The translations under genes were made by a program, and so were the position numbers. Positions 4,107-46,908 of a stretch of DNA of 63,317 nt are shown here, piece after piece (position 1 is the stretch's first letter; every line of letters starts with the position of its first letter). Source of the stretch: Pseudobdellovibrionaceae bacterium (lineage in GTDB: Bacteria > Bdellovibrionota > Bdellovibrionia > Bdellovibrionales > UBA1609). The stretch covers positions 1 to 63,317 of the forward strand of contig JABJQG010000043.1 of assembly GCA_018663505.1 (NCBI GenBank). Direction: 5' to 3'. The notes under the pieces are model-generated. The model was not told the DNA's origin. It made no database searches and worked only from the letters and a program-made list of their open reading frames with translations.

Positions 4107-4578
4107 AAAATTATTTACGATTTTTCAATTTTAATGAGAACATAATATTTAATGGTGCGGATACATGGATGTGCCGCGCTACGAGGGTTGGTGAGTTAGA
4201 GGGCGAGTACCAAGGACGGTTTTTGGGTACCACTATCTTACAGGAAACAGGTGGAAAATTTAAGTGGATATCAAGGATTGATATCACTAAGAATTTACTC
4301 AACGAGCATGATGCTCTACGGTTCCTAGCTCATCTTCCCTCTCTTTTTTTTTCTTTTCTTTTGGCTTTAAAACAGCCTTCTGAGTCTCTCCAAATTTTAT
4401 TAAATAGGATCTTACCGCTTGGCAGGCACAAGCACGGGGCGGGTGCATGGCGTCTTCGGATGGCGTCATCTAAAAAGATGCCGCAACCCGGATACGCAAT
4501 GCTCGCCGTGAGTACCTGCCAAGCGGTAAGATCCTATTTAATAAAATTTGGAGAGACTCAGAAGACTGCTTTAAAGCT
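4107..4578. other. Non-coding or degraded spacer inside the flg operon
   Basis: About 470 bases separate flgI from the recognisable FlgJ coding region, in an operon where all other junctions are overlaps or short gaps. A reading frame 4103-4603 is open but matches no family I know, runs straight through both arms of a long inverted repeat, and changes character there. Other visible items are a hairpin around 4267-4283 (GATATCA/TGATATC), a small palindrome GAGCATGATGCTC near 4304, and a pyrimidine tract at 4332-4362. I regard this as an insertion scar or structured mRNA spacer rather than a gene. Confidence 0.5.
4364..4577. repeat. Long palindrome: 63-bp arms, 88-bp GC-rich core
   Basis: Left arm 4364-4426 and right arm 4515-4577 are reverse complements with only two mismatches, both near the outer ends. 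The AT-rich arms enclose a GC-rich core (4427-4514) that contains further short self-complementary segments: CACGG...CCGTG, and GCGTCATCT/AGATGCCGC with one mismatch. As RNA this would form a 61-pair stem within the flagellar operon transcript, as DNA a cruciform. No poly-T follows, so it is not a simple intrinsic terminator. No target-site duplication is obvious. Its core resembles that of the palindrome at 46786-46908. Confidence 0.9.
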
Positions 4579-12836: not shown

Positions 12837-12894
12837 ATTATTTTATGGGTTTATAAGTGGGTAGTTTTGAGCAAAGGATTTCCCATTAGCGCCC

Positions 12895-12910
12895 TTCCAT
12901 GGATGGAAAA
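12895..12910. repeat. Possible solo end/remnant of the 220-bp hairpin element
   Basis: CCATGGATGGAAA here matches the right terminal inverted repeat of the elements at 15362-15579 and 44132-44365. The 15 bases upstream (GGATTTCCCATTAGCGCCC) also resemble the GATTTCCCAT end. There is no full second copy of the element around it, so it could be a deletion remnant or chance. Confidence 0.4.
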
Positions 12911-12944
12911 TCATCGACTTTGATCCAATTTGAGATTCAACTTC

Positions 12945-15327: not shown

Positions 15328-15361
15328 AAGGTACGAGTTAGGATTTTTGAGCTTTTAGAGC

Positions 15362-15579
15362 AAAGTTGATAGTTTTCCATCCATGGGAGCTCGGGCCTAT
15401 GGCGGCCCGAGCCCACCAATTCCCCCACGTCGTGTGGGAGAATCTATTGCAAGATAATAAATCCATAGTTACCTGAAATTTTTTAATTACCTATAGATTC
15501 TTTAACACGATGTTAAAGAATTGCGGGTTTCAGGGGCGGCTAGCCCCTGATCTCCCATGGATGGAAAGGTATCAACTTT
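15362..15579 (+). repeat. 220-bp multi-hairpin inverted-repeat element, copy A
   Basis: Bounded by 27-bp inverted arms: AAAGTTGATA, two unmatched bases, then TTTCCATCCATGGGA (15362-15388), mirrored at 15553-15579. Inside, in order, are a CGGGCC/GGCCCG hairpin (~15392-15409), a CCCAC/GTGGG hairpin with loop GTCGT (~15424-15438), a GAATCTAT/ATAGATTC pair enclosing an AT-rich centre, a TCTTTAA-CACGATG-TTAAAGA hairpin (~15499-15519), and a CAGGGGC-GGCTA-GCCCCTG hairpin (~15531-15549). It fills the prmA-rsmE gap. Copy B at 44132-44365 is in the opposite orientation. Possibly a mobile non-autonomous element and/or a structured RNA; no known family is recognised. Confidence 0.9.
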
Positions 15580-15703
15580 ACACTAGTTGCCCAAAGCTAC
15601 CCAATCATAAATCAACATTTTAATGAAATAGGCGTTATGATATAGAACAAAAATATGTTAATAGGCTACTTGGTAACTAGATAAAAACCTAAAGCAGGAA
15701 TCA

Positions 15704-43901: not shown

Positions 43902-44115
43902 GCGAGGACAGACTGTTATAGGGGAAGTGGTAGAGCATGTTGAAGGCTCTAGGGACCTCATTATTCAATTAGATTCAAAACTAATGAGAGTGCAAAATGC
44001 TACATATAGGCGTTTCGCAGTTGGTGATAGTATTTCACTTATTGTGAGCTCTTCATCGCCCCTTAGGTTTGAGCTTTCAGTAAGTGCGCCAGGTCAGTTG
44101 AATTTAACTGTTTAA
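43882..44115 (+). CDS. Small orphan beta-rich protein
   Basis: A 77-aa protein in a different frame overlapping the preceding stop by 20 bases. It begins MSRNKFKRGQTVIGEVVEHV and continues with strands (DLIIQLDSKLMRVQNATYRR, FAVGDSISLIV), similar in character to an OB/S1-like nucleic-acid-binding fold. No specific family is recognised. The hairpin repeat element copy B follows within 20 bases. Confidence 0.72.
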   Translation: MSRNKFKRGQTVIGEVVEHVEGSRDLIIQLDSKLMRVQNATYRRFAVGDSISLIVSSSSPLRFELSVSAPGQLNLTV

Positions 44116-44131
44116 AGTTTGTGGTTTGTAC

Positions 44132-44365
44132 TTTTATTGAGATCTTTCCATCCATGGGAAATCGAGGCTGGTCGCCTCGAGCTCCACAATCTAATGGCAT
44201 CGTGCCATTAGATCTAAAAAAATATTAATATTTGAGACAAACTGAATTTTCTTTTAATATTTCTTTCTTACCTTTCATTAGATTCCCCCACACGACGTGG
44301 GGGAATTGGTGGGTTCGGGCCGCCATTAGGCCCGATTTCCCATGGATGGAAAGATCTCAATGAAA
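44132..44365 (-). repeat. 220-bp multi-hairpin inverted-repeat element, copy B
   Basis: Perfect 29-bp terminal arms at 44136-44164 and 44333-44361, with TTTCCATCCATGGGA in each and weaker pairing beyond. The inside, read on the minus strand, matches copy A (15362-15579): CGGGCC/GGCCCG hairpin, CCACCAATTCCCCCACGTCG, a CCCCCAC/GTGGGGG hairpin, an AT-rich centre, a hairpin with the same CACGATG loop but different stem (TCTAATGG/CCATTAGA) and a last hairpin TCGAGGC-GACCA-GCCTCGA. The stems changed but stayed paired. It fills the gap between the 77-aa gene and a minus-strand orphan. Confidence 0.9.
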
Positions 44366-44473
44366 GAAGAAACCTCAAATTAAAAACAAACCCAAATTCA
44401 ATGAATTGGACACACAATCAATACGAGGACTTTATAAAATTAACCAAGCTGTGAACAAGAGATGAACTAAATA

Positions 44474-44977
44474 CTAAACACTTTCTCTTACAAATCGAGT
44501 CATGTAATAACGAACAAGAAAATCTAGGTTCTTAATTTCGTGATCTTTGAATTTCCAGATGAGTTCTTCAAAAGCAACCCACTCAGCAACTAACTGATCT
44601 TCTTTTATTTGGCGAGGGGCATTCTTTTCAATAGTTTGCCCTGGAATAAACGCATTACCAATGTGGTTAAAAGAAACAGAGAGTTTACCGGGTCCTTTGA
44701 TGGAGAAAATTAATTTGTAACCGTTACGGAAAAGCATGAAGTCTGCTATTGTTTTTGCAATACCATAAATTTTAATTTGTCCTGAGCTGGTTGTTTTCAT
44801 TTGATTAAAGGCAGATGAAGCTTCAACGAATAGAACTTTAAGATCTTTTATAAATTCAACAGTTTCTACCTTTATAGCTTCATTGGCGTTGAACCCAGCT
44901 GAAAAATCAACCATTCCTGATTCTTCCATTTTCACTTCAGCGTCTATAAGATCTTTGATCCACGAAATTTTATCCAT
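44474..44977 (-). CDS. Orphan cytoplasmic protein
   Basis: A 167-aa soluble protein beginning MDKISWIKDLIDAEVKMEES; GAGGAG precedes ATG 44977. Mixed alpha/beta, including GQIKIYGIAKTIADFMLFRN and YKLIFSIKGPGKLSVSFNHI, which resembles ligand-binding cup strands, and a C-terminal helix with NLDFLVRYYMTRFVRES. No family recognised. It stands alone and is divergent from pal. Confidence 0.75.
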   Translation of the reverse strand: MDKISWIKDLIDAEVKMEESGMVDFSAGFNANEAIKVETVEFIKDLKVLFVEASSAFNQMKTTSSGQIKIYGIAKTIADFMLFRNGYKLIFSIKGPGKLSVSFNHIGNAFIPGQTIEKNAPRQIKEDQLVAEWVAFEELIWKFKDHEIKNLDFLVRYYMTRFVRESV

Positions 44978-46785: not shown

Positions 46786-46908
46786 GAGGATGTTAGCTGT
46801 CATTGATATATCTAACCCAAAAAGGCTCAGACATGCAGTGCTCGGCCTTTGGCCTCCGCGCTGAACTCGCTTTTTGTGCTAGATATATCAATGACAACTA
46901 ACATCCTC
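46786..46908. repeat. Long palindrome: 29-bp arms, GC-rich core
   Basis: Left arm 46786-46814 and right arm 46880-46908 are reverse complements with one mismatch, enclosing a core (46815-46879) with GCAGTGCTCGGCC, GGCC-TTT-GGCC and an AAAAAG/CTTTTT pair. The core segment GACATGCAGTGCTCGGCC aligns with GATACGCAATGCTCGCCG in the core of the palindrome at 4364-4577 (13 of 18). The arms of the two palindromes are unrelated. It lies in the gap between cpoB and tsaD, with no poly-T. Confidence 0.88.

Follow-up and report, generated by a model that had tools for sequence, protein, structure and literature searches.

The stretch of DNA analysed here (the window, 63,317 nt) is contig 44 of the 72-contig draft genome of a Pseudobdellovibrionaceae bacterium with a size of 3.78 Mb, labelled G000 in the following. 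An inverted-repeat search identified a 280-bp inverted repeat at 44109-44388 (copy B), which is wider than the region 44132-44365 of the original prediction. Its arms (44109-44169 and 44328-44388) are 61 nt long and 85% complementary. The neighbours of copy B are a small ORF that stops near position 44115 (by eye) and a minus-strand gene ending at 44474. The window harbours a second copy (copy A) and a remnant as well. The features are as follows.

44109..44388, no strand: copy B, whole element including outer arms (inverted repeat and within-copy arm alignment)
44148..44216, plus strand: type-2 half-unit of copy B (covariance model match, 82.7 bits)
44162-44180, plus strand: hairpin 1 of the type-2 half-unit, TCGAGGC/GCCTCGA (counted by hand)
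44181-44187, plus strand: junction of the type-2 half-unit (counted by hand)
44189-44198 with 44204-44213, plus strand: hairpin 2 stem of the type-2 half-unit, loop ATCGT at 44199-44203 (counted by hand)
44214-44216, plus strand: CTA of the type-2 half-unit (counted by hand)
44217..44278, no strand: AT-rich variable spacer separating the half-units (low between-copy identity)
44279..44349, minus strand: type-1 half-unit of copy B (covariance model match, 88.9 bits)
44335-44315, minus strand: hairpin 1 of the type-1 half-unit (counted by hand)
44314-44308, minus strand: junction of the type-1 half-unit (counted by hand)
44306-44282, minus strand: hairpin 2 of the type-1 half-unit, loop GTCGT at 44296-44292 (counted by hand)
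44281-44279, minus strand: CTA of the type-1 half-unit (counted by hand)
15346..15595, no strand: copy A (inverted-repeat search and covariance model)
15377-15446, plus strand: type-1 half-unit of copy A (covariance model)
15494-15564, minus strand: type-3 half-unit of copy A (covariance model)
12844..12928, plus strand: remnant composed of a left arm, TTCCATGGATGGAA and an arm of the other kind (terminal pattern match and repeats)

In the window, the half-unit covariance model recovered both half-units of copy A and both of copy B with E-values of 1e-18 or better. The remnant lacks both half-unit cores.

The element consists of two inverted half-units around an AT-rich spacer of variable sequence. 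Going inwards, each half-unit comprises an outer arm with CCATCCATGGGAGATC at its end, then hairpin 1 with a stem of 7-8 bp, a C-rich junction and hairpin 2, a 10-bp stem with the 5-nt loop RTCGT, which is followed by CTA. Three types of half-units are told apart by their stems.

Type 1: hairpin 1 TCGGGCC/GGCCCGA, hairpin 2 ATTCCCCCAC/GTGGGGGAAT
Type 2: hairpin 1 TCGAGGC/GCCTCGA, hairpin 2 ATCTAATGGC/GCCATTAGAT
Type 3: hairpin 1 TCAGGGGC/GCCCCTGA, hairpin 2 ATTCTTCAAC/GTTGAAGAAT

Assigned by hairpin 2, the 93 half-units first tabulated comprise 50 of type 1, 22 of type 2 and 21 of type 3. Mixed half-units combine a type-3 hairpin 1 with a hairpin 2 nearer to type 1 or 2 (L074, L083, L102 and L100). 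Within an element chiefly types 1 and 2 or types 1 and 3 are paired; copy A represents the combination 1+3 and copy B 1+2.

A covariance model search of G000 yielded at least 115 half-units at no fewer than 61 places, with both halves present at 54 of them. Scoring in the first look covered 150 of the 759 candidates, which makes 115 a minimum. Between copies the core is 0.89-0.96 identical, compared to 0.64-0.71 for the spacer and 0.62-0.66 for the arms. Moreover the outer ends are common to the copies (42 matches vs 2 for a reversed-pattern control). Three short hairpins (L115, L114 and L130) carry the outer ends of this family, termed family 1, with the core partly or wholly gone as if by deletion.

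For the minus strand of copy B, folding gives -112.2 kcal/mol when treated as RNA (z -12.3) and -67.2 when treated as DNA (z -13.9). As RNA, the plus strand is just as stable (z -13.1), and copy A reaches z-scores of -10.2 and -11.0. The original prediction had read the stem differences between copies A and B as compensatory changes. Both exchanges are present in the sequence and the paired exchange is real, but a type-3 half-unit is thereby compared with a type-2 half-unit and not substitutions at one site. As the two copies differ in half-unit type, these exchanges do not constitute a set of independent substitutions. The TTCTTTAAC stem of copy A itself deviates from type 3 by a compensated change from C-G to U-A. 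Within types, the 93 tabulated half-units show 10 compensated two-sided pair changes, with the type-1 rows of L028 and L110 left out (hairpin 2 out of register). Unpaired substitutions in the same stems, which had been named as speaking against the prediction, do occur: 14 one-sided pair changes (3 G-T, 6 A-C and 5 others) in 13 half-units stand against the 10 two-sided ones.

For the pair counts, near-duplicates and hairpin 1 of half-units disrupted by an insertion sequence were dropped beforehand; one sequence set for counting comprised 27 of 42 sequences plus one typed row. Hairpin 2 is paired in 95.6% of the cells over 27 distinct sequences with a covariation score of 0.729, compared to 0.256 for shuffled and at most 0.242 for slid alignments. 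For both hairpins, 28 half-units are 95.8% paired and score 0.530 vs 0.202 shuffled, whereby the half-unit sequences are related and all these counts hence represent non-independent events. Measured against shuffles and slides, the pair counts are decisive for the existence of the fold as such. Selection for the folded form, as originally put forward, was drawn from the covariation of two copies, which is insufficient alone because hairpin-templated copying gives paired changes too, according to PMC8794818. A constraint on the fold is nevertheless supported by stem length and loop being kept while stems are replaced across half-unit types and across bacterial families of the order. The fold is likely to be under constraint, be it as RNA or as single-stranded DNA.

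A DNA search in 57 relatives retrieved no match to the element, and only structure models reached other genomes. Model R1 matched 1 of 146 other genomes, namely G095 (same order, other family) at 4 places. Model R2, derived from the G000 and G095 sequences and run on 38 relatives of G095, gave matches in 5 of 38 genomes, among them G095 (43 half-units), G041, which belongs to a third family (7), and G134 (2). The remaining single matches in G047 and G092 are distrusted, the former resembling coding sequence and the latter being weak. In G134 two distant half-unit-like hairpins are found ~270 nt apart within a longer inverted repeat (L238, 1-560). The hairpin 2 stems of G095, e.g. AAGGTCGGCC where G000 has ATTCCCCCAC, share few letters with those of G000, i.e. 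the stems are fully replaced; the 10-bp stem length is kept and the loop is mostly RTCGT. In a gap-free alignment of 15 sequences hairpin 2 is 95.3% paired (score 0.952 vs 0.200 shuffled). For 39 distinct rows from other genomes, in an alignment fitted to the model, the values are 94.0% and 0.475 vs 0.112, whereby pair counts from other genomes lean towards the fold as the matches were found by a fold-rewarding model. Entropy is lower in loop columns (0.56 bits) than in stem columns (1.21 bits), as calculated over 33 sequences of G000 and 11 others. The exact hairpin 2 pattern of type 1 has no match in the genome-contig and viral-contig collections. The G095 pattern gave 9 single matches in unrelated genomes, none with a model half-unit, and none in viral contigs.

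Regarding the position relative to genes (simple ORF rule), 50 places were examined, 10 of which are unclassifiable with the neighbour missing at a contig end. Among the 40 classified places 38 are intergenic and 2 lie over short ORFs. The 38 places are flanked by 18 convergent, 17 tandem and 3 divergent gene pairs, while the 34 gaps of ≥ 60 bp in the window comprise 4 convergent, 24 tandem and 6 divergent ones, i.e. convergent pairs are in excess (18/38 vs 4/34, p 0.002). In the 17 tandem pairs the element is located at a median of 46 bp past the upstream stop codon and 133 bp ahead of the next gene. The copies sit near gene 3' ends and prefer convergent pairs. This placement speaks for the main rival to a single-stranded DNA reading, which we rank second: an RNA element whose hairpins would function within the 3' UTR of mRNAs as bidirectional terminator, by 3' end protection or by protein binding. 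The junctions give a weak hint in the same direction, since a disallowed combination, meaning one that breaks junction-junction pairing when the strand with type 2/3 in front is read, occurs in 0 of 41 cases (hypergeometric p 0.03, copies non-independent). However, arm mismatches amount to 49 G-T and 48 A-C in copies with an arm identity of ≥ 0.70, i.e. G-U pairs are not in excess, and hence selection on one RNA strand is not apparent. The equal folding of both strands argues against such a role as well, and so do three copies (L013, L017 and L024) beyond an apparent ordinary terminator (by eye) and an Rfam 15 search of the window with no match above the gathering score. An RNA role at mRNA 3' ends is a minority possibility, albeit a serious one.

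The outer arms are on average more alike within a copy (mean identity 0.713) than between copies (0.637). In 7 of 17 copies the within-copy identity exceeds the 95th percentile of the between-copy values, and the arms of L002 share ~60 consecutive identical positions. In L012 the 3' side of hairpin 1 together with the junction reads CCAGCCTCGATTTCC, which matches the inverted form of GGAAATCGAGGCTGG, located directly upstream, letter for letter; the corresponding stretch in other type-2 copies is CCGCCTCGAGCTCC. Judged from the letters, this 15-nt footprint looks like one template-switch event. Template switching can create as well as repair hairpins, as set out in PMC8794818.

Two further hairpin families with copy-specific arms were observed in G000. 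Family 3 (window 46786-46908) has 40 copies in G000 (L173-L212) and is present in G007, G012, G060 and G065. Its conserved core of ~65 nt resides at the tip of a long stem. Each of the 40 copies examined has stem arms of its own (38-71 nt, counting part of the core edge). The two arms of one copy match almost perfectly, whereas arms of different copies mostly show no relationship, with a median alignment score of 91 vs 18; outside the core, 1938 of 2024 arm positions are identical, 7 copies of relatives counted in. In 30 of 38 classified copies the upstream gene has the same orientation as the core (p 0.0005). An apparent wobble asymmetry (74 A-C vs 16 G-T) was discarded as a core-edge effect, since the outer arms alone show 14 G-T and 16 A-C. 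Family 2 (window 4364-4577; L146, L147, L148 and L167) exhibits a core of ~85-100 nt at ~8 places with copy-specific, near-perfect arms of ~23-66 nt in copies with both arms readable. As arm matches confined to the same copy are common in G000, an argument from arm covariation alone is weakened.

The copy-specific arm identity, the perfect arms of family 3 and the L012 footprint, together with the template-switch literature (PMC8794818), would suit inert palindromes that spread once and acquired paired changes by template switching or arm conversion alone, with no selection. One would not expect such palindromes to retain loop, junction, stem length and CTA amid stem replacement across bacterial families of the order, nor to be much more alike in the core than in arms and spacer. 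We regard inert palindromes as improbable.

Hairpin 1 of family 1 is a target of an insertion sequence, found at L019 (54-1208) and at contig ends of G000, with a gene for an IS481-like transposase of 384 aa. The protein scores 184.5 bits against NF033577, below the cut-off of 224, while the Pfam domains LZ_Tnp_IS481 and rve are above cut-off. In 17 of 17 flanked cases (8 left, 9 right) the insertion sequence ends within hairpin 1, and hairpin 1 of both types 1 and 3 is hit. The common site is GGCYG, followed by 4 bp that recur on both sides of the insertion (CCTT, CCCC and similar), the 4-bp duplication being deduced from junctions of different insertions. Since the type-3 site lies in the stem, the insertion sequence may read sequence instead of the loop.

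Concerning mobility of the element itself, 10 Y1 transposase matches were obtained at 9 places in G000 (e.g. L059-L064), none of which has a family 1 repeat within ~1.5 kb; no RAYT gene among the Y1 matches examined adjoins the repeat. Likewise, none of the three hairpin families is near these matches. The ORFs next to the single half-units L158, L161, L162 and L166 look ordinary by eye with no transposase seen. By eye no target duplication was seen at the element ends, which are degenerate, and no autonomous transposon with these ends was noticed among the outer-end and model matches in the 72-contig draft. The common outer ends and the core-deleted short forms with the same ends would fit a classical MITE of a DDE transposon with the terminal repeat TATGGGTTTATGAGTGGG and perhaps a TA duplication, but with no such transposon found, degenerate ends and no visible target duplication this is very unlikely.

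Taken together, we lean towards reading the family of copy B as non-autonomous dispersed palindromic elements, REPIN/MITE-like, which are recognised as folded single strand. A trans-acting protein would recognise the half-unit as folded single strand, most likely DNA, and spread the element. Stem pairing, stem length and loop would be kept under this recognition while the stem letters drift. Paired stem changes may arise in part via hairpin-templated copying (template switching), which would restore pairing in one step, and those compatible with the required fold would then be retained. Constraint would be weakest on the long outer arms, which would drift fastest. We favour the single-stranded DNA form as there is no preference for either strand and the family shows the behaviour of a dispersed mobile repeat.

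More tentatively, mobile double-hairpin half-units travelling as folded single-stranded DNA might form an undescribed family that extends over the whole order, combined with an arm-copying process that builds or keeps perfect copy-specific stems around the cores of families 2 and 3. If true, a copying mechanism that is dedicated or unusually active would have produced the long perfect hairpins. With dozens of copies per genome, stems fully exchanged across bacterial families of one order and a template-switch footprint, the system offers a natural test of how stem pairing is maintained. The family 1 hairpins represent a new set of landing sites for an insertion sequence. Moreover covariation in palindromic repeats alone is no proof of RNA.

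A literature search covering open-licence papers returned no description of family 1. The Brucella repeats Bru-RS1/RS2 are palindromic and serve as insertion sites of IS711. They resemble family 1, by description and not by sequence, as palindromic repeats hosting one insertion sequence, although the inserting element here is IS481-like. An insertion sequence specific to one repeat family recalls the REP-targeting insertion sequences treated in PMC1525189; unlike those, the one found here is IS481-like and uses GGCYG with a 4-bp duplication in types 1 and 3. Terminal inverted repeats common to the copies are shared with MITEs. REP/BIME/REPIN systems with TnpA-REP (RAYT) are extragenic palindromes of high copy number (PMC8266576, PMC3116915), which are arranged as inverted pairs around a variable spacer, recognised in folded form and targeted by insertion sequences. 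Family 1 equally consists of many extragenic inverted-pair palindromes (61 places, 54 paired). In contrast to REP/REPIN, however, its half-unit core of ~70 nt contains two hairpins and is accompanied by long arms, the GTAG tag beside the hairpin is rare (G before TAG in 2 of 82, though CTA after hairpin 2 is conserved) and the repeat is without a neighbouring RAYT gene. By description, not sequence, family 1 finally resembles the bacterial stem-loop families, which according to PMC2267715 are intergenic repeat families with a common fold.
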